In this document: positions 45,872 through 63,585 of the stretch, piece by piece
How the letters are laid out: each line of letters opens with the position of its first letter
How positions within the stretch are numbered: the stretch's first letter is position 1
DNA from: Tepidimicrobium xylanilyticum
GTDB lineage: Bacteria > Bacillota > Clostridia > Tissierellales > Tepidimicrobiaceae
Assembly (NCBI RefSeq): GCF_900106765.1
Contig: NZ_FNNG01000001.1
Coordinates: forward strand, 1 to 64,000
DNA length: 64,000 bases
Reading direction: 5' to 3'
The notes under the pieces: generated by a model
The model's database searches: none
What the model saw: only the letters and a program-made list of their open reading frames with translations
What the model was told of the DNA's origin: nothing
Made by a program: the position numbers and the translations under genes

Positions 45872-47143
45872 CTACTTTATCGGAAGATATTCTATTTTTG
45901 CTATATCCCTTCTATAATACATACCATCAAATTTAATTATACCTAGGTTTTTATATATTATATCCCTAGCCTCTTCTAAAGTATTTCCTAAAGCAGTAAC
46001 CGAGATCACCCTACCACCATTAGTATAAATCATTCCATCCTTTTCAATAGTTCCATTATGGAATACCACTATATTTTTATCCACATCTTTAAGGCCTGTA
46101 ATCCCCTTCCCTTTTTCGTATTTTCCAGGGTAGCCTTTAGATGTAGCCACTACGGTTACACACTTTTCACTTTTCCAAATTAGATCTTCTTTTTTCAAGT
46201 CCCCATCTAATGTTTTTTCTATAATATCTACTAGATCTGATTCAAGCCTTGGCATTAATACTTCTGTTTCTGGGTCTCCAAACCTAACGTTAAATTCCAA
46301 TACTTTAGGCCCAGATTCGGTAATCATCAACCCAATAAAGAGTATCCCATCGTAATCTAATTTCTCTTCTTCTAAGCCTAATTCAATCCTATTCAATATT
46401 TTCTCTTCTACATCCCTTTCCAATTCCTCAGTAAACAATGGATTGGGAGAAAAACAGCCTACACCACCAGTATTTGGTCCCGTATCCCCTTCATATATCT
46501 GCTTATAATCTTTAGCGCTTTCCATAGGAATTAGTTTTCCTTTAGATACAAAACAAAGAAGTGAGGCTTCAACCCCTTCTAAGAATTCTTCTATTATGAT
46601 GGTTTCACCACTGGCCCCAAATACCCTATCCTCCATAAAGTCGCTTATACAAACGATAGCCTCTTCCCTTGAATTGCAAATTACAACACCCTTGCCTAGA
46701 CAGAGGCCATCCGCCTTTATTACCAAGGGATAATTGAAACTATCTAGTTCATTAATGGCCTCTTGACTATCCGTAAACCTTTTATATTTAGCAGTGGGAA
46801 TATTATATTTCTCCATAAACTCCTTTGCATAGCTTTTAGAGCCTTCCAACTGGGCTGATTTTTTATTAGCTCCAAATATTCTCAGTCCCTTTTCCTTAAA
46901 TCTATCCACAATTCCCATTACTAGAGGATTTTCTGGACCCACTATGGTTAGATCTATTCTTTCCTTTAATACAAATTCCATTAACTTTTCTATATCCTCC
47001 GGTTCTATATCTATATTTTGAGCTATTTCTTTAGTTCCTCCATTGCCGGGAGCACAGTATACCTTGCTTACCTTTTTGGATTCAGCCAATTTCCAGCATA
47101 GGGCATGTTCTCTACCACCACTTCCTAGAACTAAAACCTTCAT
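45872..47143 (-). CDS. purD: Phosphoribosylamine-glycine ligase
   Basis: A 423-residue ATP-grasp enzyme making GAR from phosphoribosylamine, glycine and ATP. It opens KVLVLGSGGREHALCWKL; YNIPTAKYKRFTDSQEAI and PLVIKADGLCLGKGVVIC form the ATP-grasp region; DYKQIYEGDTGPNTGGVGCF and FNVRFGDPETEVLMPRL are family signatures. ATG follows AGGAGGG. It is the last gene of the purine operon. Confidence 0.97.
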   Translation of the reverse strand: MKVLVLGSGGREHALCWKLAESKKVSKVYCAPGNGGTKEIAQNIDIEPEDIEKLMEFVLKERIDLTIVGPENPLVMGIVDRFKEKGLRIFGANKKSAQLEGSKSYAKEFMEKYNIPTAKYKRFTDSQEAINELDSFNYPLVIKADGLCLGKGVVICNSREEAIVCISDFMEDRVFGASGETIIIEEFLEGVEASLLCFVSKGKLIPMESAKDYKQIYEGDTGPNTGGVGCFSPNPLFTEELERDVEEKILNRIELGLEEEKLDYDGILFIGLMITESGPKVLEFNVRFGDPETEVLMPRLESDLVDIIEKTLDGDLKKEDLIWKSEKCVTVVATSKGYPGKYEKGKGITGLKDVDKNIVVFHNGTIEKDGMIYTNGGRVISVTALGNTLEEARDIIYKNLGIIKFDGMYYRRDIAKIEYLPIK

Positions 47144-47154
47144 TAGTATCCCTC

Positions 47155-48687
47155 CTAATGTTTAAAATGCCGCATTCCAGTAAATATCATGACCATGCCA
47201 TTTTTATCCGCTTCCTCTATTGATTCCTGATCCCTTAAGGATCCTCCTGGCTGAATTATAGCTGTTACCCCTGCCTTGGCTAAGGCCTCAACTGAATCCT
47301 TAAATGGGAAAAATCCATCAGAAGCTAAAACCGAACCCTTTGCCTTATCTCCTGCCCTTTCAATGGCAGCTTTTACAGCCCATACCCGATTTACCTCTCC
47401 TCCCCCAATACCTATAGTAGCCTTATCCTTGGCCAATAATACTCCATTGGATTTTACCCCTTTTACCGCCTTCCATCCGAATATTAAATCCTCCATTTCT
47501 TTTTCAGTAGGCTTCCTTTTAGTAACCACTTTTAGCTCTTGGCCCAGTAGATCTCGATTTCTTTGTTGAATTAGTACACCTCCAAGAACCTTTTTTATAT
47601 CGTAACTGGCGTAGTCATTTTTCATAATATTTGGAACCTTAAGTATCCTTATATTTTTCTTAGTAGCTAAAACCTCTAGAGCTTTTTGTGTATAATCAGG
47701 AGCCATTACTATTTCAATGAATATTTCATTTATCCTCTTTGCCACTTCTTCATCTACTATCCTGTTAACTGCAATTATTCCACCGAATATCGAAATCTTA
47801 TCGCATTCATAGGCTTTTACATAAGCTTCTAACAAGTCCTTTCCGCTGCCTATACCGCAAGGGTTAGCATGTTTTACAGCTACTACCGTTGGCTCATCAA
47901 ATTCCTTTAATATCTCCAGAGCTCCATTTCCATCGTTTATATTGTTGAATGATAATTCCTTTCCATGTAGTTGAATGGCAGCAGCAATTGTACCATCTAA
48001 ATTGTTGTATTCCTTGTAGAATGCTGCCTTCTGATGGGGATTCTCTCCATATCGCAACTCCTGTTTATCTTTAAAGGGTATAGTTATGATGTCAGGAAAT
48101 TCCACATTATTTAAGCAATTAAAATAATTAGCTATCAATGAATCATAATAGGCTGTATACTGGAATACCTTTCTTGCTAATTCCCGTCTTAAATCCAGAG
48201 AGGTTTCTCCCCTTGTTCTCAATTCCTTCAATACCCTACCATAATCTGAAGGGTCTATAACCACAGTAATATATTTATAATTTTTAGCAGCAGCCCTTAT
48301 CATAGCAGGACCGCCTATATCTATATTCTCTATGACCTCCTCATGGCTTATGCCTTCCTTCTTAATGGTATCTTCAAAGGGATATAAATTGTTTACCACC
48401 AAATCTATGGAGCCGATGTCTAATTTCTTTAAAATCCTTTTATGTTCTTCTTCATCTCTCTTATATAAAATCCCTCCGTGGATATGGGGGTGGAGGGTTT
48501 TAACCCTACCATCTAATATTTCAGGGAAATTAGTAATTTCTTTTATATCTCTAAAAGGAATATCTTCGTTCCTTAGAATCTTACCAGTTCCTCCAGTTGA
48601 TATTATTTCCCAGCCTAAGCTTACCAACTCCCTTGCTAACTGGACAACCCCTCTCTTGTCATAAACGCTTATCAATGCCCTTTTCAT
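47155..48687 (-). CDS. purH: Bifunctional AICAR formyltransferase/IMP cyclohydrolase
   Basis: A 510-residue enzyme for the last two steps to IMP. ATG 48687 is chosen with GGGAGTG upstream, four bases after purN. The N-terminal cyclohydrolase has ISVYDKRGVVQLARELVSLG and ISTGGTGKILR; the formyltransferase part has VAVKHANPCGIGSGKDL (catalytic Lys-His), LRYGENPHQKAAFY and QPGGSLRDQESIEEAD. Confidence 0.96.
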   Translation of the reverse strand: MKRALISVYDKRGVVQLARELVSLGWEIISTGGTGKILRNEDIPFRDIKEITNFPEILDGRVKTLHPHIHGGILYKRDEEEHKRILKKLDIGSIDLVVNNLYPFEDTIKKEGISHEEVIENIDIGGPAMIRAAAKNYKYITVVIDPSDYGRVLKELRTRGETSLDLRRELARKVFQYTAYYDSLIANYFNCLNNVEFPDIITIPFKDKQELRYGENPHQKAAFYKEYNNLDGTIAAAIQLHGKELSFNNINDGNGALEILKEFDEPTVVAVKHANPCGIGSGKDLLEAYVKAYECDKISIFGGIIAVNRIVDEEVAKRINEIFIEIVMAPDYTQKALEVLATKKNIRILKVPNIMKNDYASYDIKKVLGGVLIQQRNRDLLGQELKVVTKRKPTEKEMEDLIFGWKAVKGVKSNGVLLAKDKATIGIGGGEVNRVWAVKAAIERAGDKAKGSVLASDGFFPFKDSVEALAKAGVTAIIQPGGSLRDQESIEEADKNGMVMIFTGMRHFKH

Positions 48688-48691
48688 ATTA

Positions 48692-49315
48692 TCACTCCCA
48701 TTTAATTCTAACCTTTTTTCCTTCAATAATAAGCCTATTTTCGCAGAATAGCCTTATAGCTTCTGGTAATAATTCATGTTCTACTTTCAATACTCTTTCT
48801 TTCAAGCTTTCTACCGTATCGTCATCCTTCACTTCCACAGCTCTTTGAAGGACAATAGGGCCTGTATCCGTTCCCTCGTCTACAAAATGTACTGTAGCCC
48901 CAGTAATCTTCACTCCACTGTCCAACACCATTTGGTGAACTTTATCTCCATAACATCCTTTTCCACAGAAACTAGGTATTAACGATGGGTGAATATTTAT
49001 TATCCTTCCCCTATACCTTTCTATGAATTCTTCAGACAATATTTTTAAATATCCAGCAAGAACTACTAACTCCACTTCCTTTTTGGTTAGTTCATCGATA
49101 AGTTTTCTATTGTACTCTTCCTCCGAATTAAATGCTCTTTTATCAATATATAGGGCTTCAATTCCAGCTTTTCGTGCCCGCTCTAGTCCATAGGCATCTT
49201 TCCTATTGGATAGGACTAACTTTATTCTTCCCTTTATTCTACCTCTATCTATTTCATCTATGATGGCTTGGAGATTGGTTCCACTACCCGATATCAATAC
49301 GCCTATATTCACCAT
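48692..49315 (-). CDS. purN: Phosphoribosylglycinamide formyltransferase
   Basis: A 207-residue GAR transformylase using 10-formyl-THF. Catalytic residues appear in [19 protein letters not shown] (Asn, His) and [14 protein letters not shown] (Asp); [16 protein letters not shown] is the N-terminal phosphate loop. The start overlaps purM by 32 bp, with AGGAGAAGG upstream inside purM. Confidence 0.96.
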
Positions 49316-50336
49316 AGTGAAACCTTCTCCTCTCCCCTTTTATTTCTCCTAATAGAACTAATTCTTCTTCCATATCTTTTAATTGTGCAATAATCTTGTC
49401 TACTTCATCTTCACCTACTATAAGCATCATTCCAATTCCCATATTAAAGGTGGAATACATCTCTTCTATACTAATATTTCCCCACTTAGCCAACAAGTCG
49501 AATATCACCGGAGTGTCTATCTTTAAAGTGTCTATGCTGGCGGTCAACCCATCAGGAAGAACCCTTGGAATATTCTCATAGAATCCGCCACCAGTTATAT
49601 GGACTATACCTTTAATGTGGTATTTCTCTATTAAAGGGAGTACCGTCTTAGTATATATTCTAGTAGGTTTTAATAGTTCTTCTCCTAAAGTAGTATTTAA
49701 CTCGGGTATATATTCATCTACTTTAAAACCCATCTTTTCAAATACTATCTTTCTAACTAGTGAGTAGCCATTACTGTGGATTCCGCTGGAAGGAAGACCT
49801 ATTATAAGATCTCCTTTCTCTATTTTGGAACCATCTATTATTTTTTCCTTATCTACCACACCTACGCAAAAGCCTGCCAAATCATATTCGTATTCCTTAT
49901 AAAAGCCTGGCATTTCAGCTGTTTCTCCACCAATTAAAGCTAATTCTCCCTTTACACAGCCATTTGCAATTCCCTCTACTATTTTGGCCATCTTTTCTGG
50001 GATCAATTTCCCTGTAGCAATATAATCTAAGAAAAATAAAGGCTTTGCTCCTTGACATAATATATCGTTTACGCACATGGCAACACAATCTTCCCCTATG
50101 GTATCATGCTTATCCATCATAAAAGCAATTTTCAATTTGGTACCAACGCCATCGGTACCAGAAACCAAAACAGGTTCTTTATAGGATTTTATATCCAACT
50201 CAAAAAGCCCCGAAAACCCACCAATGCTAGATAAGACCCCTGGTCTATGTGTTTTCTTTATAATATTCTTAATAAGCTGAACCTGCTTATAACCGGCTTC
50301 TTTGTCTACGCCTGCATCTTTATAAGTAAATTTCAT
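49284..50336 (-). CDS. purM: Phosphoribosylformylglycinamidine cyclo-ligase
   Basis: A 350-residue AIR synthetase. Signatures are [20 protein letters not shown] at the start, [50 protein letters not shown] and [19 protein letters not shown]. Ribosome binding site GAGAGGTG. It uses FGAM made by PurL. Confidence 0.97.
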
Positions 50337-50351
50337 TATACTTTCACCTCT

Positions 50352-51701
50352 CTAAATTAAATCCCCATCCACTGGATATTGACCGCTAAAGCAACCAGTA
50401 CAATAACTATTTTCTCCACCTACAGCTTCCAACAAGCCTTCTAAAGATAAGAAAGAAAGGGAATCAGCACCTATTTTATCCCTTATTTCTTCGATGCTTT
50501 TCTGTGCAGCAATAAGGTTTTCTTTATTAGGAGTATGCATTCCTAAAAGGCAAGGATGTTTTACTGGAGGAGATGCAATCCTCACATGTACCTCCCTAGC
50601 TCCTGCATCCTTTAGCATTCTTACGATCCTCTTCATAGTTGTCCCTCGAACTATCGAATCGTCTACCAATATTATTCTTTTCCCTTCCACATTTTCTTTG
50701 AGTACATTTAATTTAATCCTTACCCCTATTTCTCTTAATTCCTGAGTAGGTTGAATAAAAGTTCTTCCCACATACCGGTTCTTAATGAGTCCTTCATCGT
50801 AAGGAATTTTAGATTCTTCCGCATACCCGATGGCTGCAACTGTTCCCGAATCTGGCGCTGAGATTACTATGTCACCTTCCACTGGATGTTCCCTTGCCAA
50901 GTTCCTGCCTGCTTCTCGCCTTAAACGGTATATACTTTTTCCATCTAATTTGCTGTCTGGCCTAGCCAAATATATTATTTCAAATAAACAAATATTTTTG
51001 TTGTCCGCTTCCTTGGTCTTTATAGATTTAATATCTCGATCGATTATTACCACCATTTCTCCTGGATTTACATCTCTAACAAATTGGGCCCCTATAGTAT
51101 CTAGGGCGCAGGTTTCTGAAGATAGTATATAATCCTTGCCTAATTTCCCAATACATAGAGGTTTCAATCCATAAGGATCCCTAACCCCTATTAATCGATC
51201 ATTGGTCATTAAAACCAAAGCATATGAGCCCTTTATATCCTTAACCGCCTTTATTATAGCTTGTTCAATATCCTCCTTATGGTATCTAGCAATTAAATTG
51301 GCTATTACCTCCGTATCGATGGAGGATTGGAATATTATCCCATCATCTTCCATTTTCTCCCTTAATTCTCTGTAATTTACCAAACTCCCGTCATATGCCA
51401 AGGCTAAGGCCCCTTGTTTGTATCCTACCACCAAAGGTTCCGCATTTGCAGTGGTGGTTTTTACAGAACTTCCAGTCCTAACATGCCCTATCCCTATATC
51501 CCCTCTTAACCTATTTAATACATCCTTATCCAGTACTTCGTAGGCCAATCCTAAGCCTTTATGGTAATCGATATATCCATTATTGTTTACTGCCATTCCA
51601 GCACTAACTTGGCCTCTATGTTGAAGGGCATATAGTCCATAATAGATTATTTTAGGTACATCCCTTTTTTCCTTACTGTATATGCCAATGATTCCACACA
51701 A
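50352..51701 (-). CDS. purF: Amidophosphoribosyltransferase
   Basis: The first committed enzyme of purine synthesis, with an N-terminal Ntn glutaminase and a C-terminal PRTase domain. A TTG start at 51701, six to seven bases after AAAGGGTG, would give Met-Cys so that the nucleophile Cys (CGIIGIYS) is exposed by removing Met; a GTG at 51710 would instead leave a three-residue propeptide. Other marks are YALQHRGQVSAGMA, the PRPP loop ILVDDSIVRGTTMKRIV and cluster-type cysteines HPCLLGM and YCTGCFSG, suggesting a 4Fe-4S centre. Confidence 0.93.
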   Translation of the reverse strand: MCGIIGIYSKEKRDVPKIIYYGLYALQHRGQVSAGMAVNNNGYIDYHKGLGLAYEVLDKDVLNRLRGDIGIGHVRTGSSVKTTTANAEPLVVGYKQGALALAYDGSLVNYRELREKMEDDGIIFQSSIDTEVIANLIARYHKEDIEQAIIKAVKDIKGSYALVLMTNDRLIGVRDPYGLKPLCIGKLGKDYILSSETCALDTIGAQFVRDVNPGEMVVIIDRDIKSIKTKEADNKNICLFEIIYLARPDSKLDGKSIYRLRREAGRNLAREHPVEGDIVISAPDSGTVAAIGYAEESKIPYDEGLIKNRYVGRTFIQPTQELREIGVRIKLNVLKENVEGKRIILVDDSIVRGTTMKRIVRMLKDAGAREVHVRIASPPVKHPCLLGMHTPNKENLIAAQKSIEEIRDKIGADSLSFLSLEGLLEAVGGENSYCTGCFSGQYPVDGDLI

Positions 51702-51719
51702 GTCTTTCACCCTTTCGGA

Positions 51720-52205
51720 CTAATAAATCTCCTTTATTTTGTTATCCATTTCCTTAACTTCTTCTGCCATTTCCAATTTATAATCTTTAAACTTCTTTCT
51801 AAGCTCTGGATATTTTACTGATAGAATCTGTACTGCCAAAAGGCCAGCATTTTCTGCCCCATTTATGGCTACCGTTGCTACCGGTACTCCCTTTGGCATT
51901 TGGACTATAGACAATAGAGAGTCTAATCCATCCATAGTAGAGGATTTTATAGGCAGCCCAATAACTGGAAGGGGAGTTATTCCAGCTATTACACCAGCTA
52001 AATGGGCTGCCTTTCCAGCAGCAGCTATTATTACCTCAATACCTCTTTCCTCAGCAGTCCTTGCATATTCGGCTGCTTCAAATGGGGTTCTATGGGCAGA
52101 AATAACCCTTACTTCCATATCTATATCAAACCTTTTTAAAACATCTATGGTCTTTTCAACTATATCTTTATCGGAAATGCTTCCCATGATAATACCAACC
52201 TTCAT
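51720..52205 (-). CDS. purE: N5-carboxyaminoimidazole ribonucleotide mutase
   Basis: A 161-residue PurE starting MKVGIIMGSISDKDIVEKTI (ATG 52205, GGGAGG). RVISAHRTPFEAAEYA holds the catalytic His; AAGKAAHLAGVIAG and SLLSIVQMPKGVPVATVAI are conserved. No purK is adjacent, so it may be a class II AIR carboxylase or depend on a distant purK; class cannot be settled here. Confidence 0.94.
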   Translation of the reverse strand: MKVGIIMGSISDKDIVEKTIDVLKRFDIDMEVRVISAHRTPFEAAEYARTAEERGIEVIIAAAGKAAHLAGVIAGITPLPVIGLPIKSSTMDGLDSLLSIVQMPKGVPVATVAINGAENAGLLAVQILSVKYPELRKKFKDYKLEMAEEVKEMDNKIKEIY

Positions 52206-52227
52206 TTTAAAACCTCCCTCTTTGTTC

Positions 52228-52259
52228 AATTGACAATTGGTAAGGCAGAATTGTCAATT
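52228..52259. repeat. Inverted repeat in the purL-purE gap
   Basis: AATTGACAATT (52228-52238) and its exact complement (52249-52259). The following bases (TTCATAGTTCACGATGCAC) resemble a low-complexity intergenic element of a kind common in clostridia; other copies were not found in the window. Confidence 0.5.
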
Positions 52260-52321: not shown

Positions 52322-55300
52322 TTAACCAAAATAATCAACTCCTGCTTTAAATAATTTTCCTTCTTCCGAACTTTCTACATTCTTATACAAGCCTCTACCA
52401 ATTCTATCTGGGTTGGCAATTCTTCCTAAAATCTTACCGTCAGGGCTAGTTAGACTTTCTATACCATATATGGACCCTGTTGGGTTTTCATCTAGGTATT
52501 GAGTTGCTATTTGGCCTTTTTTAATAAGTTCTTCTATTGCCCTTTCACTTCCTACAATTCTTCCTTCTTTGGTAGATAGGGGCAGTATCTCAATTTCTCC
52601 TACATCCCTATTATTAAACCAAGGGGATAGATTGGAAACTATCCTAATCTTCGCCATTGTGGATATATGGTATCCCGACTTATTATAGGTAATGTTTATG
52701 GAATCCTCATCTAAGTCCTGTATTCTACCATAGGATAAAAGGCCAGATTTTATCAATCCCTTACAACCAGCACCTATTCCTAATACTAGGCCATCCCTGT
52801 TGCTTAATAGTTCCATAATGGCTTCTTCTATATAGGGGTTTCTTAATATATTGGCTAATAATTTGCCTCCTCCATCAGGTTCAGCCCCCAAAATAGCTCC
52901 ATCAGGTAATCCAATTATTTGGCTATTCCTTATCCTATTTGCCATCTCCTTAATGGAATCTTCTATTTCATCCAAATATAAAGTCTTAAATACAAAAGTA
53001 TCCACTTGAGCACCTGCATTCTTAAAGGCTTTCTCCATATCGTATTCTCCAAAGGTTCCAGTAAATACTGGTATGAAAACTCTAGGTTTGGCTATTTTGT
53101 TTATCGATTTTCTACGGTTTCCATGGACGTAATGGCTTTCTTTACTTTCAAGGAACCTACCTTCACTAATGGGAAATACATCTATAAGTGGCTTAATCCA
53201 TTCGTCAATAAGTTTATCCAAATCCAGTTTCACTCCAGCTATTTCTATAAACTCTTCTTCAATAGTGGCGCCCAATATTCTATAATCTATATCCCTTAAT
53301 ACTTCCTCTAGCTCTCCTTTAATCTCAACTACAATTGAACCATATAGAGGTAAGAATAGTTCTTCTTCATGAAACTCTTCACTAAATCTAAATCCTATCT
53401 TATTTCCGAAAGCCATTTCAGAAATGCTTCTAGCAACTCCTCCAGTTTTTACTGAGGAAGCAGAAATAATTTTTCCAGCATCTATCAGCTCTTTAATCTG
53501 AGTATAATTCCTTTTCAATTGCCCAAAGTCTACCATTCCCTTTTCATCTATATCCAGTGGAATTAATGCTACCATATTTCCTGATTCTTTAAATTCTGGG
53601 GAAATGATATTTTCAACCTTATCCACTGCAACAGCAAAACTGATTAAGGTTGGTGGTACATGTATATCTTCAAAGGTACCAGACATGCTGTCCTTGCCGC
53701 CAATACTTGGAACATCCAATTCCTTTTCTACCATAAATGCTCCTAATAAGGCTGCAAAGGGTTTGCCCCATTTTTTCTCATTATCCCCTAATCTTTCAAA
53801 ATACTCTTGGAAGGTAAGTCTTGCTTTTCTGAAATCCCCTCCCATGGCTGTAATCTTAGCTAAGGATTCTATAACTGCAAACATTCCTCCATGGAAAGGA
53901 CTCCATCTAGAAAGATCTGGATCGAATCCATAAGTCATTAATGAACAAGTATTGGTTTCTCCATCTAATACTGGAATTTTAGCAGCCATTCCCTCAGCAG
54001 GAGTTAGCTTAAACTTCCCCCCCAAAGGCATAAGGACCGTTCCACTGCCCACACTATGATCGAATTTTTCTATCAGTCCCTTTTGACTAGAGTGGTTTAG
54101 ATAGGATAAATTGCTCATCCAAATTTTCTCAATATCTCCGTTTAAATGGAAAGATTTAGTATGGAAATAATCCCTTCCTTCAGGACTTCCAACTAATACC
54201 TTCGTTCTCTTGCTTACTCCATTGGTATCTAAAAACTCCCTTGATATATCTACTATCTTCTTTCCCTTCCAATTCATAATCAATCTTTCATCTTCACTTA
54301 CTTCAGCTACCACTGTCGCCTCTAGGTCTTCATCTTTCGCATATTTAATGAAGGATTCTAAATCGCCCTTTTCTATTACCACCGCCATCCTTTCCTGGGA
54401 CTCGGAAAGGGCTATTTCAGTTCCATCTAATCCGGGATATTTTAGAGGAACCTTATCTAAATCAATCCTTAACCCTGGAGCCAATTCTCCTATGGCTACT
54501 GAAACCCCTCCTGCACCAAAGTCGTTGCATTTCTTAATCATCTTACTAACCTCTTCATTTCTAAAAAGCCTTACAATCTTTCTTTCAAGCGGAGGATTGC
54601 CTTTTTGAACTTCTGCTCCACCCCTTTCCAAAGATTCCTCAGTATGTCTTTTAGATGAACCTACAGCACCGCCCAATCCATCTTTTCCAGTTCTGCCGCC
54701 TACTAGTAATATCAAATCTCCAGGCTCTGGGGATCTCCTCACCACATTTCTTTTAGGTGCTGCTGCAACCAATGCTCCAACTTCCATCCTCTTAGCCACA
54801 TAGCCCTCATGGTATATCTCCTTAACATAACCTGCAGGTACCCCTATTTGGTTTCCATAGGAACTATAGCCTTCCATAGCCAATTGGGTAATCTTCCTTT
54901 GAGGAAGCTTTCCTGATAAGGTATCTTCAAATCTTTGTCTAGGATCTGCTGCCCCAGTTATTCTCATTGCCTGATATACATAGGCCCTACCTGAAAGAGG
55001 ATCTCTTATACATCCTCCCAAGCAGGTGGAAGCTCCACCAAAGGGTTCAATCTCAGTTGGATGGTTATGAGTTTCGTTTTTAAACATCAAAAGCCATTTT
55101 TCCGTCCTCCCATCCACATCTATATCAATTTCTATACTGGCTGCATTGACCTCCTCAGACTCCTCCAAATCATCTAACAATCCCTTCTTCTTTATCTCCT
55201 TCATATTTATGGTAGCTAAATCCATTAAACTAATAGGCTTCTCCCTATCCCCATAGACATAACTTCTAGACTTTAAGTATTCTTCAAAGGCCTTTTCGAC

Positions 55301-56038
55301 TAGCATTTTGTATTTGCCCTCTTCAAATTCTATGCCTTCTATTTCAGTCCTAAAGGTAGTATGTCTACAATGGTCCGACCAATAGGTATCTATTACCTTT
55401 ATTTCAGTAATAGTTGGATTGCGCTTCTCCCTATCCCTAAAATAATTCTGAGTAAATAGCAAATCCTCCATGTCCAGTGCTAATCCGTATTTTTCTCTCA
55501 TTAGGGCCAGTTCCTCTTCCGTCATAAGGATAAATCCATCTAAAACTTCTATTTCATCCCCAACTTCTTCATGCTTTTCATAGGGAATAAAGTCCATATC
55601 TATTTCTCTCATTTCAACAGGGTTTATATAATAATCTTTTATCAATTCATATTCCTTATCATTTACACCTTTTAACACAAGAACCTTTGAGTGCTTTACT
55701 TTAATATCCTTTCTACCGAGTAAAACATAGATAGATTCATTAACTGCATCTTCCCTTTGGTTATATTGACCAGGAGCAAATTCAACTCTAAAACATCTGT
55801 CATCATCCTTTAAAGGAAGGCTTGATTCGTATAGATGGTCTAAATTCTTTTCGAAAAGTATTTTTTCTATTATAGCCTTATAATCTTTTTCATCTCCATT
55901 AAAAATATAATAACAATTAATAATCCTTACTCCTTCTAAAGATTCAATCCCTAAATAGTTTTTAAAATCCCAATATAGATTAGATGCCTCTATATTAAGG
56001 TCTTCTTTTTTTTCAATAAAAACTCTTTTAAAATTCAC
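52322..56038 (-). CDS. purL: Phosphoribosylformylglycinamidine synthase, single-chain, degenerate glutaminase domain
   Basis: A 1238-residue large PurL of the clostridial single-chain type, GTG start behind AAGGAGGG. The synthetase part is well preserved: IDTYWSDHCRHTTFRTEIEG, FKNETHNHPTEIEPFGGAST, GRTGKDGLGGAVGSSKRH, SIGGKDSMSGTF. The C-terminal glutaminase domain (from about residue 1000, RVFIPVFTGTFGEYDMEKAF) is altered: the nucleophile motif GxCNGxQ reads GIGAGCKG, the HPER-type triad motif reads NPDR, and the oxyanion segment reads LPDGAILGAE. Synthetase activity with free ammonia is plausible. First gene of the operon. Confidence 0.93.
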   Translation of the reverse strand: MNFKRVFIEKKEDLNIEASNLYWDFKNYLGIESLEGVRIINCYYIFNGDEKDYKAIIEKILFEKNLDHLYESSLPLKDDDRCFRVEFAPGQYNQREDAVNESIYVLLGRKDIKVKHSKVLVLKGVNDKEYELIKDYYINPVEMREIDMDFIPYEKHEEVGDEIEVLDGFILMTEEELALMREKYGLALDMEDLLFTQNYFRDREKRNPTITEIKVIDTYWSDHCRHTTFRTEIEGIEFEEGKYKMLVEKAFEEYLKSRSYVYGDREKPISLMDLATINMKEIKKKGLLDDLEESEEVNAASIEIDIDVDGRTEKWLLMFKNETHNHPTEIEPFGGASTCLGGCIRDPLSGRAYVYQAMRITGAADPRQRFEDTLSGKLPQRKITQLAMEGYSSYGNQIGVPAGYVKEIYHEGYVAKRMEVGALVAAAPKRNVVRRSPEPGDLILLVGGRTGKDGLGGAVGSSKRHTEESLERGGAEVQKGNPPLERKIVRLFRNEEVSKMIKKCNDFGAGGVSVAIGELAPGLRIDLDKVPLKYPGLDGTEIALSESQERMAVVIEKGDLESFIKYAKDEDLEATVVAEVSEDERLIMNWKGKKIVDISREFLDTNGVSKRTKVLVGSPEGRDYFHTKSFHLNGDIEKIWMSNLSYLNHSSQKGLIEKFDHSVGSGTVLMPLGGKFKLTPAEGMAAKIPVLDGETNTCSLMTYGFDPDLSRWSPFHGGMFAVIESLAKITAMGGDFRKARLTFQEYFERLGDNEKKWGKPFAALLGAFMVEKELDVPSIGGKDSMSGTFEDIHVPPTLISFAVAVDKVENIISPEFKESGNMVALIPLDIDEKGMVDFGQLKRNYTQIKELIDAGKIISASSVKTGGVARSISEMAFGNKIGFRFSEEFHEEELFLPLYGSIVVEIKGELEEVLRDIDYRILGATIEEEFIEIAGVKLDLDKLIDEWIKPLIDVFPISEGRFLESKESHYVHGNRRKSINKIAKPRVFIPVFTGTFGEYDMEKAFKNAGAQVDTFVFKTLYLDEIEDSIKEMANRIRNSQIIGLPDGAILGAEPDGGGKLLANILRNPYIEEAIMELLSNRDGLVLGIGAGCKGLIKSGLLSYGRIQDLDEDSINITYNKSGYHISTMAKIRIVSNLSPWFNNRDVGEIEILPLSTKEGRIVGSERAIEELIKKGQIATQYLDENPTGSIYGIESLTSPDGKILGRIANPDRIGRGLYKNVESSEEGKLFKAGVDYFG

Positions 56039-56054
56039 ATTAAACCCTCCTTGA

Positions 56055-56105
56055 AAAAATAAAGCCCAGTCAGGTAGGCAAGCGAAACCTACCCGACTGG
56101 GCTTT
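56055..56105 (-). terminator. Leader terminator of the purine operon
   Basis: An 18-bp stem (56061-56078 with 56088-56105, one G-T pair) and nine-base loop, then ATTTTTTC. Its 5' arm (AAAGCCC) is also the 3' strand of the ykkC/PRPP aptamer, so folding of aptamer and terminator are mutually exclusive. Confidence 0.92.
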
Positions 56106-56194
56106 TATCCCTTCGGTGTAATATTGTCAACGACAACATCTGCGCCGCTTGGTCCAGACAAGGTAAAACCTTCGGAACCCTAGGCACACTTTCG
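56099..56194 (-). promoter_or_regulatory. ykkC-class riboswitch, probable PRPP aptamer
   Basis: The leader contains the ykkC core in order: GCGAAAGTGTGCCTAGGGTT and CCG, GTCTGGACCAAGCGG, then after a variable hairpin ACACCGAAGGGATAAAAGCC. Position before de novo purine genes and directly after a purine aptamer indicates the PRPP-sensing subtype. Because its closing strand overlaps the terminator stem, ligand binding should prevent termination (an ON switch). Confidence 0.85.
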
Positions 56195-56264
56195 CTCATA
56201 GCTCAAATGATTTACGGTCATTTGGTAGAAACTTCTCAACCATATTATGAGAATTATATGAGCT
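56194..56264 (-). promoter_or_regulatory. Purine (guanine-class) riboswitch aptamer
   Basis: P1 GCTCATA/TATGAGC, J1/2 TAAT, P2 TCTCA/TGAGA with loop AATATGG, J2/3 AGTTTCTAC, P3 CAAATGA/TCATTTG with loop CCGTAAA. All conserved core and loop-loop bases of purine riboswitches are present. J3/1 reads AGC rather than AC as in the Bacillus xpt aptamer; the C expected to pair with guanine is kept. Joined directly to the ykkC aptamer. Confidence 0.92.
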
Positions 56265-56288
56265 TCATATTCACTTTTGTATAATTTC

Positions 56289-56317
56289 ATATTATCAGTA
56301 GGTGTAGAATAAGTCAA
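56289..56317 (-). promoter_or_regulatory. Sigma-A promoter of the purine operon
   Basis: Leftward TTGACT (56312-56317), 17-bp spacer and TAATAT (56289-56294). The predicted start near 56283 lies about 20 bases before the purine aptamer. Confidence 0.8.
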
Positions 56318-58694: not shown

Positions 58695-59738
58695 CTAATG
58701 GTCCTTCGCTTCCTCTAAATTCTTCAAATTTATCATCAAGGCAAACACAATAGTTCCATAGGCTATAAAACTTCTAAAATATTCGCCAAGAGCTGGGTTT
58801 TTAAATATATTTTGTCCAGCTAAAGGTGATACTATAAACAAGGTATGGAATAAAAATATTCCAATAAAGGCATTCCTTATATTTACCTTTTTAAAGGTAG
58901 CACCTCCTGCTAATAATGCTGCCGATGAAAATACATCTAAATTTAAATGACCCGTATATACGTTTAAAATGCCTAAGTTTTGTATGAACATGATTTGGGC
59001 TAATGAGGCCAATATGGTAGACATTATTACTGCCATTTTCCTAGTCTTATCTACATGGATTCCTACCTTTTCAGCTAAGTACATATTTTCCCCTACTGCA
59101 TTCATTCGATAACCAATCTTAGATTTAGTTATAAAATGGACTACCGTTCCTATTATAATGATTATAATTATAGGCACAAGAGAGCCTTCTATGTTCCCAA
59201 TCTTTATTGGAAGCATATTACTGAACAAATTCTTATATTCTCCAATATCCAGCATACTTTTTACCCCTATTCCCCTGGTAAGTAAAATGTCTTCATTAAA
59301 TGGCTTTATTATAGTGCCATATGCCACCATAAACACTATCTGATATAAGCTGGTTCCCAAAAAACCTATTACCATACTTGCTATCATTTCCTTCCCCTTT
59401 GCCCTATTAAGTAAAGTACCAATCATATTCCCAAAAACTATAGATAATACTACACTTAGTAATATGACTATAATAGATCCTAACCCGGGGGTAAAACCAA
59501 TATCTATAACAATTAACATAGAAATTTGAGCTGCTATTGCTCCTATGGTAATTGAGAAGTTGATTCCCATACCTGCCATAATGGGGAAAATTAGGGCTAA
59601 TAAGAAGATTCCATTCCTTATAAACCTAGCATACAATTCACCCAATATGAAATTAAAACCCACTTTGGCAGCAATAATACCTAAAATGGATAGGATAAAG
59701 AAAAAAATTGGAACATAGTATTCTTTATATCTTTTCAT
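58695..59738 (-). CDS. ABC transporter permease, sugar/nucleoside branch (second permease)
   Basis: A 347-residue membrane protein of the BPD_transp_2 branch (COG4603/COG1079 type). GMGINFSITIGAIAAQISML and the conserved loop KSKIGYRMNAVGENMYLAEK with SAALLAGGATFKKVNIRNAF are typical. It overlaps the first permease gene by 14 bp, with GGGTGAGG before the ATG. Confidence 0.88.
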   Translation of the reverse strand: MKRYKEYYVPIFFFILSILGIIAAKVGFNFILGELYARFIRNGIFLLALIFPIMAGMGINFSITIGAIAAQISMLIVIDIGFTPGLGSIIVILLSVVLSIVFGNMIGTLLNRAKGKEMIASMVIGFLGTSLYQIVFMVAYGTIIKPFNEDILLTRGIGVKSMLDIGEYKNLFSNMLPIKIGNIEGSLVPIIIIIIIGTVVHFITKSKIGYRMNAVGENMYLAEKVGIHVDKTRKMAVIMSTILASLAQIMFIQNLGILNVYTGHLNLDVFSSAALLAGGATFKKVNIRNAFIGIFLFHTLFIVSPLAGQNIFKNPALGEYFRSFIAYGTIVFALMINLKNLEEAKDH

Positions 59739-60762
59739 TTTTCATCCTCACCCCTTCGTATAGGAAAGCGTATAGTATTATTCCATTGGTCACTATCATC
59801 CTAATAATTTCAGACATTTCCGATATCAGCAATGCATTAGCCACTGGAACGGAAAGTAAAAAAGTAGTCTGATAAAGATATGTACCCAGCATTACATTAA
59901 ATACAGTAGCCTTGTTCTTAGTTGCTCCTCCTATTAATATTGCAGAAACTGCTGGGAAGGCCATCATAAATGGCCCATCATATAAATAAATGAATCCATA
60001 ACTCTGTGAATACACTATAATCCCTACTGCAGCTAATACATTAGAAAAAATTATGGCTATTCTTCTATATCTATTTATATTAATTCCTGATAGCTTAACA
60101 AAGGTCTCGTTTTCTGGGATTGCAGCCATAGTAATTCCCATTCTGGTTTTTTGAAATAGATATACTATAGAACATAAGATTAAGAAAAACAATATTAAAC
60201 CAGCAGGGACAACTAATTTCCCTATATTAATCTTTAAAAAGTTATCCAATATCCCAGCAAAATAACCATCTAAATTGATCTTCGGCCTTAAGCCTTGTCC
60301 TCCTACTGGATAGAGCATCTGTCTATTTTTGAAAGGGGCTAAGGACCAGAAAAGATTCATTATAGGTATGAATGAAAATCCTGCAAAGGTTCCCACAATT
60401 TCTTCATTTCCCTTTAATCTGTTCAATACAACCGAATATATGTATCCAAATAATACGGCTATTATACTTCCTGCTAATACTGATACTCCAAAACCTTGCC
60501 ACCCCTCAAGTCTGAATTCCAAAGCAATACACATACCCAATAATCCTGCAGATATGCCTATAGGCAGCCCAAAATTCCTTCCTGCACCTACATTTATCAT
60601 GGGAATTAAAGACAACACCAATACCCCATTCATTACCCATTTTATTAAGGATTCGTTTATCATATCTATATATGAAATTCCGATAAATTTAAGGCTTACC
60701 GCTAAAACTATTAAATAGGATATTACAATCAGTTGAGGCGTTTCTAATCTCAATCTATTCAT
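59725..60762 (-). CDS. ABC transporter permease, sugar/nucleoside branch (first permease)
   Basis: A 345-residue paralogous permease: GAGRNFGLPIGISAGLLGMC, the cytoplasmic loop QKTRMGITMAAIPENETFVK and PAVSAILIGGATKNKATVFN. Its ATG overlaps the ATPase stop (ATGA). The two permeases form a heterodimer with the ATPase. Confidence 0.88.
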   Translation of the reverse strand: MNRLRLETPQLIVISYLIVLAVSLKFIGISYIDMINESLIKWVMNGVLVLSLIPMINVGAGRNFGLPIGISAGLLGMCIALEFRLEGWQGFGVSVLAGSIIAVLFGYIYSVVLNRLKGNEEIVGTFAGFSFIPIMNLFWSLAPFKNRQMLYPVGGQGLRPKINLDGYFAGILDNFLKINIGKLVVPAGLILFFLILCSIVYLFQKTRMGITMAAIPENETFVKLSGININRYRRIAIIFSNVLAAVGIIVYSQSYGFIYLYDGPFMMAFPAVSAILIGGATKNKATVFNVMLGTYLYQTTFLLSVPVANALLISEMSEIIRMIVTNGIILYAFLYEGVRMKNEKI

Positions 60763-62330
60763 ACTCCTTCTAAACTCCTTCCAGATAGAGCTAAACTAAA
60801 TTCTTCCGATTCAAAATCGCCATCAAATATTTTGAAAACTCTATTCCTATACATTACAGCGATCCGGTCGCAAACCCTTTTTAGTTCAGATATTTCGCCT
60901 GAAAAGATAATGATCGTAGTATTCCTTTCTTCGTTTAGCTCTAATAACATATCCAGAATAATCTCTTTAGAATATAGGTCGATGCCTCTAGTAGGTTCCC
61001 CTACAAAAAGGATTTCTGGATCTATAGTAATAGCCCTTCCAATACATACCTTCTGTTGATTTCCTCCGCTTAAATCCATTACCTTTTGGTCTATATCCCT
61101 AACCTTAATATTCAATTTTTCTACCATATTATTTGAATATCCCCTTATGACCTTATAGTTTAAAGGTGACAACTTGCCAAGGACTGGATATTTAAGAAAT
61201 CTATTCTGCTCATCGTAAGATTCAAAAACTAAATTCTCCCAAACACTTCTATCTAAAAGCAATCCTAATTCTTTACGCTCATCTGGTAAAAGGTATATAC
61301 CTTTTTGAATTAAAGTTTCAATATCTCCTGGAACAATTTTCTCCCCTTTAAATACTACATCCCCCTTCATATCATATAAGCCCATCAATCCATATCCAAA
61401 TATTTCCTGCCCATGCCCTGCTAATCCTGTAATCCCTAAAATTTCACCTTTTTTAATATCCAGAGATATATTCTCATAATGTCCATATCCATAGGATACC
61501 TCTACATTATTAAACGATAGAATATTTTCTCTAGCGTTATTCTTCCTTTTCTTTGAAACCTGTACTATTTCCTTTCCTATCATATCCATGGTCATTTTAT
61601 TGATATCATAGTCATCTTTATCATACTGATTTACAATTTTCCCATCCTTAAATATAGTTACTCTATGGCAAATATTAACTACTTCCTCTAACCTATGGGA
61701 TATGAAAATGATGGATATACCAGCTTTTGCTATACCCTTTAAATTGGATAATAATACCTTGGTTTCCTCTACATTCAAGGAAGAAGTAGGTTCATCTAGT
61801 ATCAATATTTTTAATTTGTCATTGTCTATCTCTCTTGCGATTTCCACAAATTGCTTAAGATTAGTTGAAATAGCTTTTACTTTAATCCTTGGATTAATAT
61901 CTACCCCCAATTTCAATAAGGTCTTTTTTGCATCTGCTTCATTCTTTGTCCTATCTACTAAGGCAAAATCTCCAAATATCTTTGTTTTTTCGATTATGTT
62001 TTCTCTATTTATCTTTATATTACTGCTTATATCCAATTCTCCAAGGAGGACTAATTCCTGATGTACCATTCCTATGCCCAGCTTCATGGCATCGTAAGTA
62101 TTCTTTATTTCAACCCTTTTATTGTCGATAAAAATGTCCCCCTCATATCCACCAGTTTCCCTAATGTGTTTACTACCAAACAGAATGTTTACAAAGGTGG
62201 ATTTGCCTGAACCATTGGCTCCAATTATCCCATGGATTTCTCCCTTTTTTAAATCGAAATTAATCTTATTTAAAGCTTTCACATCATTAAAATTCTTAGA
62301 AAGGTTCTCAACTTTTAGCACATGCTCCAA
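60759..62330 (-). CDS. ABC transporter ATP-binding protein, tandem NBDs (sugar/nucleoside class)
   Basis: A 523-residue ATPase with two nucleotide-binding domains. The first has Walker A GANGSGKST and Walker B LILDEPTSSLNVEE; the second has the degenerate Walker A usual in this class (TGLAGHGQE), signature LSGGNQQK and Walker B LFVGEPTRGIDLYS. TTG start after AAGGGG, or GTG 62321 after GGAG. It lies downstream of the binding-protein gene across a hairpin. Confidence 0.88.
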   Translation of the reverse strand: MEHVLKVENLSKNFNDVKALNKINFDLKKGEIHGIIGANGSGKSTFVNILFGSKHIRETGGYEGDIFIDNKRVEIKNTYDAMKLGIGMVHQELVLLGELDISSNIKINRENIIEKTKIFGDFALVDRTKNEADAKKTLLKLGVDINPRIKVKAISTNLKQFVEIAREIDNDKLKILILDEPTSSLNVEETKVLLSNLKGIAKAGISIIFISHRLEEVVNICHRVTIFKDGKIVNQYDKDDYDINKMTMDMIGKEIVQVSKKRKNNARENILSFNNVEVSYGYGHYENISLDIKKGEILGITGLAGHGQEIFGYGLMGLYDMKGDVVFKGEKIVPGDIETLIQKGIYLLPDERKELGLLLDRSVWENLVFESYDEQNRFLKYPVLGKLSPLNYKVIRGYSNNMVEKLNIKVRDIDQKVMDLSGGNQQKVCIGRAITIDPEILFVGEPTRGIDLYSKEIILDMLLELNEERNTTIIIFSGEISELKRVCDRIAVMYRNRVFKIFDGDFESEEFSLALSGRSLEGV

Positions 62331-62349
62331 AATGTAATTCCCCTTTCAT

Positions 62350-62387
62350 AAACTATATGCAGGATAAAATTATCCTGCATATAGTTT
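62350..62387 (-). other. Intra-operon hairpin after the binding-protein gene
   Basis: A perfect 18-bp inverted repeat with AA at its centre (62350-62367 with 62370-62387), overlapping the stop codon. There is no U-tract on the transcribed strand. It probably stabilises the upstream mRNA and lowers expression of the membrane components. Confidence 0.65.
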
Positions 62388-63555
62388 AATAATATATTGA
62401 TTCCAATACTAATAAATAGTAATTGTCGGTATCCTCATCTAAAGCTCTAAAGTCAGCTCTAGTACCCATAACCTCTTCTGAAAAATCTCCTAGAAATTCT
62501 ACATTTAAAATGTCTTCATTTAACTCTAAGCCATTTTCGATTATATACTTAGCCAACTCAATTTCAAATTTGGGTACATAGATTTGTGAAGGCATAGCCC
62601 AACCTGATAGCCTTCCTGTCATACCAGCTTCTTTAGTCTTTTCAGCTATTAGTGCATTAATTTTATCATAGTTACCTAGATCTTCTGCATCTATCTCAAG
62701 ATTCATTACTGTAGGATAGGCTTGTGTAGGCGTTGGACAACATTGTTCAGCCACTATGAATTTCAATTTTAATGCTTCATCAATTATAACATCATACATT
62801 GGACAATTGCTTCCAAATATATTTGTATCTGAACCGTATTTAGCGATTTGTCTAGGTATATCCTCCCTTAAAAATTGTTGCATAGCAGCAGGGCCATCTC
62901 CAGTTTGTGGGTCTGGGGTAATGATCTCCACAAATTCCAAACCTAATTCCTTACAGGTCTTCTCCATCATTTCCTTCCTTTGCGCCACTGACTCTTTTGC
63001 TAAATGAGTTGGGAATGAATAATGTATAAAAGTCTTGGCACCCATCTCTTTAGCCTTTTTAGGTATGGTTTCACCACGTCGTACCCAGTCGGTTGCAAAA
63101 CTTATATCTACATACTTTGCCATAAGTTCTGGTTCATCTAACATAGTAGCTATTGTAATTATGTCCGGTCTTTTTTCTCTAATCTGCTCAAATGCTGGTA
63201 ATAAGCCTGATTGACCTGAGTTTACTATAATAGCTTTCATTTCTGAATCATCAGCCAAACTAAGTATTTGAGAAATTCCAGTCTCTAATTCTGTATTAAA
63301 ATTTTCTGGTAATGTTATATGCTTCACTACATCTGGATACTTCTCTGCCATTTCCGCTCCAGCTCTAAACTCATCTTCAGAAGTAGATAGTGTAGGTGTT
63401 ACAATACCTATTTTAAAGTTTTTAACCTTCTCCGCCTCCACACTGTCTTCAGATAAACTCTCCGCAGCTTCTTTCTCGGTATCAGTATTTTGACAGGCTA
63501 CCAATGAAAAAAGCATAATAAAAGATAGGATTAACGCTGTAATCTTTCTTATCAT
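62386..63555 (-). CDS. DUF3798 substrate-binding lipoprotein
   Basis: A 389-residue lipoprotein starting MIRKITALILSFIMLFSLVA with lipobox LVAC; ATG 63555 has AAGGAGG. The mature protein fits DUF3798, periplasmic-binding-protein-like: FKIGIVTPTLSTSEDEFRAG, HITLPENFNTELETGISQIL, SGQSGLLPAFEQIREKRPDI. It is the binding component of the downstream importer, and lies 30 bp after a 2-hydroxyacyl-CoA dehydratase gene. The ligand is unknown. Confidence 0.85.
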   Translation of the reverse strand: MIRKITALILSFIMLFSLVACQNTDTEKEAAESLSEDSVEAEKVKNFKIGIVTPTLSTSEDEFRAGAEMAEKYPDVVKHITLPENFNTELETGISQILSLADDSEMKAIIVNSGQSGLLPAFEQIREKRPDIITIATMLDEPELMAKYVDISFATDWVRRGETIPKKAKEMGAKTFIHYSFPTHLAKESVAQRKEMMEKTCKELGLEFVEIITPDPQTGDGPAAMQQFLREDIPRQIAKYGSDTNIFGSNCPMYDVIIDEALKLKFIVAEQCCPTPTQAYPTVMNLEIDAEDLGNYDKINALIAEKTKEAGMTGRLSGWAMPSQIYVPKFEIELAKYIIENGLELNEDILNVEFLGDFSEEVMGTRADFRALDEDTDNYYLLVLESIYY

Positions 63556-63585
63556 ATTTATTGCCTCCTTCGAATTATTCAATAC

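Follow-up and report, generated by a model that had tools for sequence, protein, structure and literature searches.

Described tandem riboswitches and the present locus

Sherlock et al. (2018, PMC5912903) reported 257 PRPP riboswitches from Firmicutes, of which 127 are joined in tandem to a guanine aptamer. In the codA leader of Bacillus megaterium, guanine leads to termination, PRPP leads to read-through, and PRPP overrides guanine, which is the behavior of an IMPLY gate (PMC5912903). For the tandem element of T. mathranii, mutual exclusion of helices P0 and P1 was proposed from the predicted folds of one sequence (PMC6031431). A 2022 review listing 192 tandems regards the precise structural changes as still to be established (PMC9481103).

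The window analyzed here is a stretch of 64,000 nucleotides from Tepidimicrobium xylanilyticum. On its minus strand, positions 56317-56054 carry a promoter-like pair, a purine aptamer, a ykkC-fold aptamer and a terminator, all located 5' of purLEFMNHD. The arrangement resembles the published tandem guanine-PRPP riboswitch in the order of the aptamers, in the single shared terminator that overlaps the PRPP aptamer, and in the purine genes downstream; the junction between purine P1 and PRPP P1 has 5 nt (GAAAG, from the folds), compared with the 5-7 that are typical in PMC5912903. It differs from that class in a one-base insertion in J3-1 of the guanine aptamer and in having purL as the first of seven genes. 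The direct junction and the one shared terminator are those of the IMPLY-gate layout. G96 and the proposed mutual exclusion of P0 and P1 are shared with the T. mathranii tandem and the PRPP aptamer structure 6CK5 (PMC6031431), the exclusion being read there from one sequence and here from pairing over 55 distinct pairs.

The preliminary description of this locus had related it to the tandem guanine-PRPP logic gates of Firmicutes, which agrees with the class in PMC5912903, and its reading of the kind of device is supported by the sequence comparisons. Since both the tandem class and the exclusion model have already been published, the element is one of a known kind. The J3-1 insertion, the strand shared by P1 and P0 and the erosion in the lineage were not part of the preliminary description; the present analysis adds comparative support for the P1/P0 exchange, a pocket insertion that within the family is confined to this genus, and a series of dismantled elements.

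The tandem pattern also matched in records titled Ktedonobacterales, Ktedonobacteria or Chloroflexi (L005, L025, L026, L049, L069, L079), whereas PMC5912903 places PRPP riboswitches in Firmicutes. Among 73 distinct parsed elements (L004-L103), the first gene after the tandem matched a purine-permease reference in 35, an xpt-like one in 14, purE in 9, purL in 6 and purC in one, and none of the references used in 8; the names purine permease and xpt are our own reading of the proteins.

Leader and operon structure

The promoter-like pair (56289-56317, minus strand) consists of a -35 box TTGACT at 56317-56312, a 17-nt spacer and a -10 box TAATAT at 56294-56289. The promoter claimed in the preliminary description is present as a consensus match only: 9 of 12 positions agree, and shuffled sequences yield 1.8 such sites per region, which is not significant alone. 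The terminator is far above chance level. Its stem-loop of 19 pairs (56061-56105) is followed by ATTTTTT, with the T-run at 56059-56054, and 0.2 such sites are expected from shuffles, in agreement with the single shared terminator proposed earlier. The 123 bases of the ykkC aptamer and terminator fold 6.2 sd below their own shuffles, none of 200 being as low. Aptamer helix P3 has its 3' strand within the 5' arm of the terminator, and P0 has its own 3' strand within the terminator loop; the earlier statement that this arm is the closing strand of the second aptamer is thus borne out.

A ribosome-binding site, AAGGAGGG (56045-56052), lies 6 nt 5' of the purL start codon, a GTG at 56038. The operon, described beforehand as purL-first, was confirmed by profile matches as purLEFMNHD, all on the minus strand: purL (52322-56038; single-chain FGAM synthase, 1238 aa; TIGR01857, 1647 bits), purE (51720-52229; TIGR01162), purF (50352-51710; TIGR01134), the first enzyme, which consumes PRPP, purM (49284-50336; TIGR00878), purN (48692-49315; TIGR00639), purH (47155-48726; NF002049 and TIGR00355) and purD (45872-47143; TIGR00877). 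All seven proteins score over the curated cut-offs of their respective models.

Upstream of the purine operon and on the same strand, ORFs at 58695-63582 read as an ABC transporter set comprising two permeases, an ATPase and a lipoprotein-like ORF; the last, the sole ORF of the set that was searched, had no NCBIfam match.

Identity of the ykkC-fold aptamer

The second aptamer (56092-56194, minus strand) matches RF00442 with 62.7 bits and an E-value of 5.9e-11 in a 411-base search, and overlaps the purine match at coordinates 56194-56179; it is the directly joined ykkC-class aptamer that had been proposed. The score is 0.3 bits under the gathering score of 63, so that the aptamer is missed at the default cut-off of Rfam. 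The preliminary description had taken the lack of a covariance-model hit for the ykkC part as refuting its reading, and at this threshold there is none; but a chance match is made unlikely by the E-value, by the residues that mark the subtype and by the relatives. In the family, RF00442 matches occur in 20 of 20 genomes and exceed the cut-off in only 7, and a score near or below it is usual for this lineage. Other, lower-ranked Rfam matches at the locus (bglG-cis-reg, drum, miRNA and snoRNA models) were far below their gathering scores.

RF00442 takes its family name from guanidine-I. The window aptamer has C at position 49 and G at position 96 (our own mapping of the numbering, anchored on the conserved AGG at 103-105). 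Both residues, together with tails that pair as P0, are those of the PRPP subtype, ykkC 2b. By C49 and G96 the aptamer fits the PRPP type, and neither the guanidine nor the ppGpp type. Throughout the tandem elements these marks are widespread: of 136 distinct elements, 135 have G96 and one could not be parsed there, and 123 have a pyrimidine at 49; in the other 13 a simple expression, whose calls were not individually verified, gave G, A or no reading.

A guanidine-I riboswitch, as the name of the Rfam family would have it, has the match to RF00442 itself and the ykkC fold in its favor. Guanidine-I carries A49 and lacks a P0 helix (PMC6031431), against the C49 and P0 tails in the window. The sub-threshold score and a separate strong guanidine-I match in the same genome (C1:197187-197286, 86.9 bits, A49) also oppose this identity, whose probability we regard as negligible. 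That other riboswitch (L001, minus strand) precedes a 235-aa ORF with no NCBIfam match at E 1e-10.

A response to ppGpp (subtype 2a) in place of PRPP deserves slightly more attention: the fold is the same, and both 2a and 2b have a pyrimidine at 49 (PMC6031431). It is nevertheless very improbable, as subtype 2a is marked by having no G96, which is present here, and an adjoining guanine aptamer and purine genes are published associations of PRPP (PMC5912903). The PRPP type is retained for the second aptamer in what follows.

Elsewhere, ykkC-2 elements adjoin T-box leaders at L169, L173 and L175. The spacing after P3 suggests that they have no G96, and instead of PRPP singlets they may therefore represent tandems of ppGpp and T-box elements.

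The guanine aptamer and its pocket

The purine aptamer (guanine-type; 56179-56281, minus strand) matches the purine riboswitch model RF00167 along its full length (1-102 of 102) with 80.4 bits, versus a gathering score of 37, and an E-value of 8.6e-13 in a search of the whole window, which substantiates the purine aptamer first noted. P1 is formed by a 5' strand GCUCAUA (56257-56263) and a 3' strand UAUGAGC (56194-56200), the last four bases of which are common to P0. The marks of guanine-I are present in large part: C74 (not U), U51 and U22, again in our own mapping, which are named as ligand-contact bases in PMC9295807, the canonical J2-3 GUUUCUAC (56225-56232), and canonical L2 and L3 loops, L3 being CCGUAAA.

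The exception is J3-1 (56201-56203), in which guanine-I has two bases, A73 and C74. Here it reads A-G-C, with one inserted base, by the covariance-model alignment, beside the ligand-pairing C74; for this reason the aptamer is filed as a variant of guanine-I and not as a plain member. The same A-G-C is found in the other genome of the genus (G019; L102 is the same sequence). It is absent from the other 18 of the 20 family genomes compared, and was found in no genome outside the genus among the elements compared. Lengthening of J3-1 as such is not unique, because L026 and perhaps L353, both outside the order, have other lengthened sequences.

In xanthine-II and guanine-II, insertions in J3-1 are accompanied by insertions in J2-3, and xanthine-II has U51G; guanine-II keeps U51 and C74, binds guanine tightly and discriminates more sharply in doing so (PMC9295807). 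The window resembles these groups in its J3-1 insertion, and unlike them has neither a J2-3 insertion nor U51G. Membership in guanine-II, which needs insertions in both J2-3 and J3-1, was rejected on account of the canonical J2-3. In the window's family, three singlet purine aptamers (L123, L129, L130) show apparent extra bases in both junctions and resemble the guanine-II/xanthine-II groups of PMC9295807.

The canonical J2-3 and L3, the presence of C74 and the binding of guanine by guanine-II despite its insertion indicate that the ligand of the first aptamer is probably guanine. A base inserted in the pocket beside C74 could also mean that the PRPP half works while guanine sensing is impaired or altered, with lowered affinity or a shift in the purine sensed, so that the device of this genus would be close to a PRPP-only ON switch. 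The insertion itself suggests this, and that of guanine-II, which comes with one in J2-3 and with sharper discrimination, is a further pointer. Against it stand U22, U51 and C74 with canonical J2-3 and L3, the identical insertion kept in both genomes of the genus, and a score of 80.4 bits that falls inside the family range of 63 to 90, although higher scores are reached by several relatives whose J3-1 has two bases. Impairment is regarded as unlikely on this evidence, and an aptamer that senses guanine remains the preferred reading.

A strand shared by P1 and P0

The 3' strand of P1 and the linker together form the 5' strand of an extended P0 helix, GAGCGAAA (56190-56197, minus strand), the 3' strand of which, UUUCGCUU (56080-56087), lies within the terminator loop. 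GAGC of P1 followed by GAAA of the linker finds a full partner in UUUC followed by GCUU of the loop, with one G-U pair. Because GAGCGAAA serves purine P1 and also pairs with UUUCGCUU as P0, the two helices would exclude each other. Predicted duplex energies are -7.8 kcal/mol for P1, -8.4 for the extended P0 and +0.3 for the unextended P0 (GAAA/UUUC), which is unstable by itself; the terminator-loop strand, which pairs with the P1 3' strand at near-P1 energy, thus imitates the P1 5' strand of the guanine aptamer.

At the decision point and with no ligand, the P1 state is predicted at -59.6 kcal/mol and the P0 state at -56.9, which are 2.7 apart, and P1 with a 4-bp P0 at -53.6, which is 6.0 worse than P1. 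At full length without ligands, the state with P1 and terminator is preferred (-87.1 versus -66.2 with P0 forced), and these modeled energies do not alone give the published ON state in the presence of neither ligand; the model is one of secondary structure that leaves aside tertiary contacts, ligands and kinetics.

Pairing was compared across tandem elements from a pattern search with one genome per species, which gave 100 stretches, with relatives added; 117 of 122 elements were used, 5 being cut by locus ends or unparsed. For 55 distinct tandem pairs, including one relic (the second element of L061), the mean duplex energy was -7.01 kcal/mol, versus -5.65 (sd 0.22) with permuted partners, and none of 500 permutations was as low. 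The extension alone, for which 8 further elements with unparsable P1 were dropped, gave -4.12 versus -3.14 (sd 0.13) over 77 distinct triples (0 of 1000). When only the 59 triples carrying GAAA and UUUC are taken, 3.59 of the 4 extension positions are paired, versus 3.26 (sd 0.06) when permuted, again with 0 of 1000. Kinship was handled in these permutations only by taking distinct sequences. Covariation can be seen in GAAT/ATTC in L017 and in GAGGGAA/TTCCTTC in records of Halanaerobiales; bulged or mismatched pairings also exist (GGGG/ACTC, L020, L095). Pairing of the P0 extension thus reflects, as far as these sequences tell, much sheer conservation and in part covariation. Seven non-tandem pairs had -4.56 versus -3.07 permuted, with 10 of 500 as low.

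These comparisons support a strand exchange between P1 and P0, and the proposed answer of strand sharing is now backed by pairing over many sequences. They also bear on the idea that only the terminator and read-through matter and that the aptamers are relics with no response to ligands. This order does contain such relics of the guanine half, but both window aptamers match their models from end to end and the P1/P0 pairing covaries, and so a relic is highly improbable here.

Under the preferred reading, a tandem guanine-PRPP riboswitch very probably governs transcription of purLEFMNHD through termination. Bound guanine would lock purine P1 and make its 3' strand unavailable for PRPP helix P0; the PRPP aptamer would then be weak and the 19-bp terminator would form, giving the OFF state. 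Bound PRPP would favor P0 (8 bp, with the P1 3' strand) and P3, and since these would take strands of the terminator hairpin, transcription is proposed to continue, the ON state, even against guanine. The parts, their shared strands, the covariation and the closeness in predicted energy of the two states come from the present data; the ligands and gate logic of the window element would follow those of the published class.

Conservation in the family and order

All 20 family genomes have matches to both RF00167 and RF00442 in covariance searches, and a strict tandem pattern finds only 2 of the 20. Coordinates place 21 of the family's 24 non-guanidine RF00442 matches next to a purine match; of the other three, two are eroded and one is cut at an apparent contig end. 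In the order, RF00442 matches, guanidine-I included, occur in 127 of 249 genomes. The order sample was made up of 80 regions and 20 further loci, scanned with Rfam, among the matches listed; G366, G368 and G395 were left out, and L057, L063 and L096 were placed in the order by judgement.

Conservation of the guanine aptamer is relaxed in this order. Among the matches listed, 34 of 68 distinct tandem elements of the order have A at nucleotide 73 (22 have G and 12 have U), versus 67 of 69 outside it. The L3 loop reads CCGUAAA in 33 of the 68 versus 68 of the 69, and J2-3 has CUAC at its end in 58 versus all 69. The outside figures for L3 and J2-3 are biased, and that for nucleotide 73 may be, because the outside set was found largely by a pattern that fixes CTACC and CCGTAAA. 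These counts come from 137 parsed elements of 200 distinct ones, the rest being mostly guanidine-I, singlets, relics and false matches. A less biased control took 60 RF00442 matches, among those listed, from elsewhere in the phylum; 7 of them were not readable by script. Read by eye, 11 were tandem and 10 of these had A73, L353 being the only exception.

Erosion of the guanine aptamer

Beside kept PRPP aptamers, the order contains guanine aptamers in many states of erosion, a series that starts from complete ones. Core substitutions are found in L124 (C50U, U51A and C74U, in our own mapping) and an altered L3 in L122, L126 and L145. A three-way shell without the core is left in the second element of G006 (L133). 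P3 is lost in the second element of G007 (L151), in L197 and in the second element of G474 (L236), and only the P2 hairpin is left in the second elements of G480 and G477 (L223, L230). Only a P1 hairpin, of GCUCA or GUUCA with UGGGC, UGAGU or UGAGC, is left in L261, L281, L245, L280, L234 and others, and no P1-type hairpin can be found in L227, L249 and L283.

Of the order's 39 distinct non-tandem elements among the matches listed, 14 have a G(C/U)UCA arm that pairs with the five bases before the linker, with 0.6 expected; outside the order the local P1 motif is found in 4 of 35, with 0.33 expected. The choice of motif followed inspection of the sequences, and genomes that are related were counted separately. 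The 14 elements span six genera, 7 of them in one genus, and L236 has a long degenerate interior. A general test for a helix at the linker was not significant for non-tandem PRPP-type elements, either in the order (16 of 39 versus 11.1 expected, z 1.8) or outside it (12 of 35 versus 10.6 expected, z 0.5). Hairpin P-values of the individual P1-hairpin elements range from 0 to 0.31.

Several genomes carry two PRPP-type elements within 1-2.4 kb (G008:C13, G011:C4, G006:C152, G007:C137). In G006, G007 and G008 one element lies 5' of purC and the next 5' of purL, and in G006 and G007 erosion has affected the guanine half of the second element, the first being complete. We infer that the change runs from complete to eroded, since the form outside the order is complete and relics still have loops of the purine aptamer.

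In an unrooted tree of the PurL N-terminal region (62 rows, with one genome under two names in L061/L230, L033/L222, L042/L211 and L053/L231), the 11 rows with canonical G72-A73-C74 are set apart by one branch (100/100), and the 2 rows with the J3-1 insertion of the window by another (100/99). The absence of a readable junction in 14 rows amounts to 7 changes, 6 of them forced by supported branches; about six junction losses remain, because L137 is a core-substituted aptamer and L139 is cut at an apparent contig end. The repeated loss of a readable three-way junction, together with relaxed conservation at 72, 73 and L3, adds to what favors an impaired guanine half in the window. Set against the intact contacts and loops described above, it leaves guanine sensing as the preferred reading.

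Implications for the lineage

In the open-licence literature searched, no account was found of guanine-aptamer erosion beside PRPP aptamers. It is possible, and is offered here tentatively, that this order dismantles an RNA logic gate step by step. The window would then be an early step, in which the A-G-C of J3-1 weakens or alters the purine signal, and later steps would keep only the PRPP aptamer and a P1 hairpin, a ligand-free competitor of P0 that sets the PRPP threshold.

The order offers a natural series in front of a kept PRPP aptamer, from complete guanine aptamers through junction variants, shells and P1 hairpins alone to nothing. Because this series exists, natural sequences can take the place of designed mutants in testing what each part of the gate does. 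If the stepwise dismantling is true, leaders with only the P1 hairpin would be PRPP switches with a built-in brake that senses nothing.
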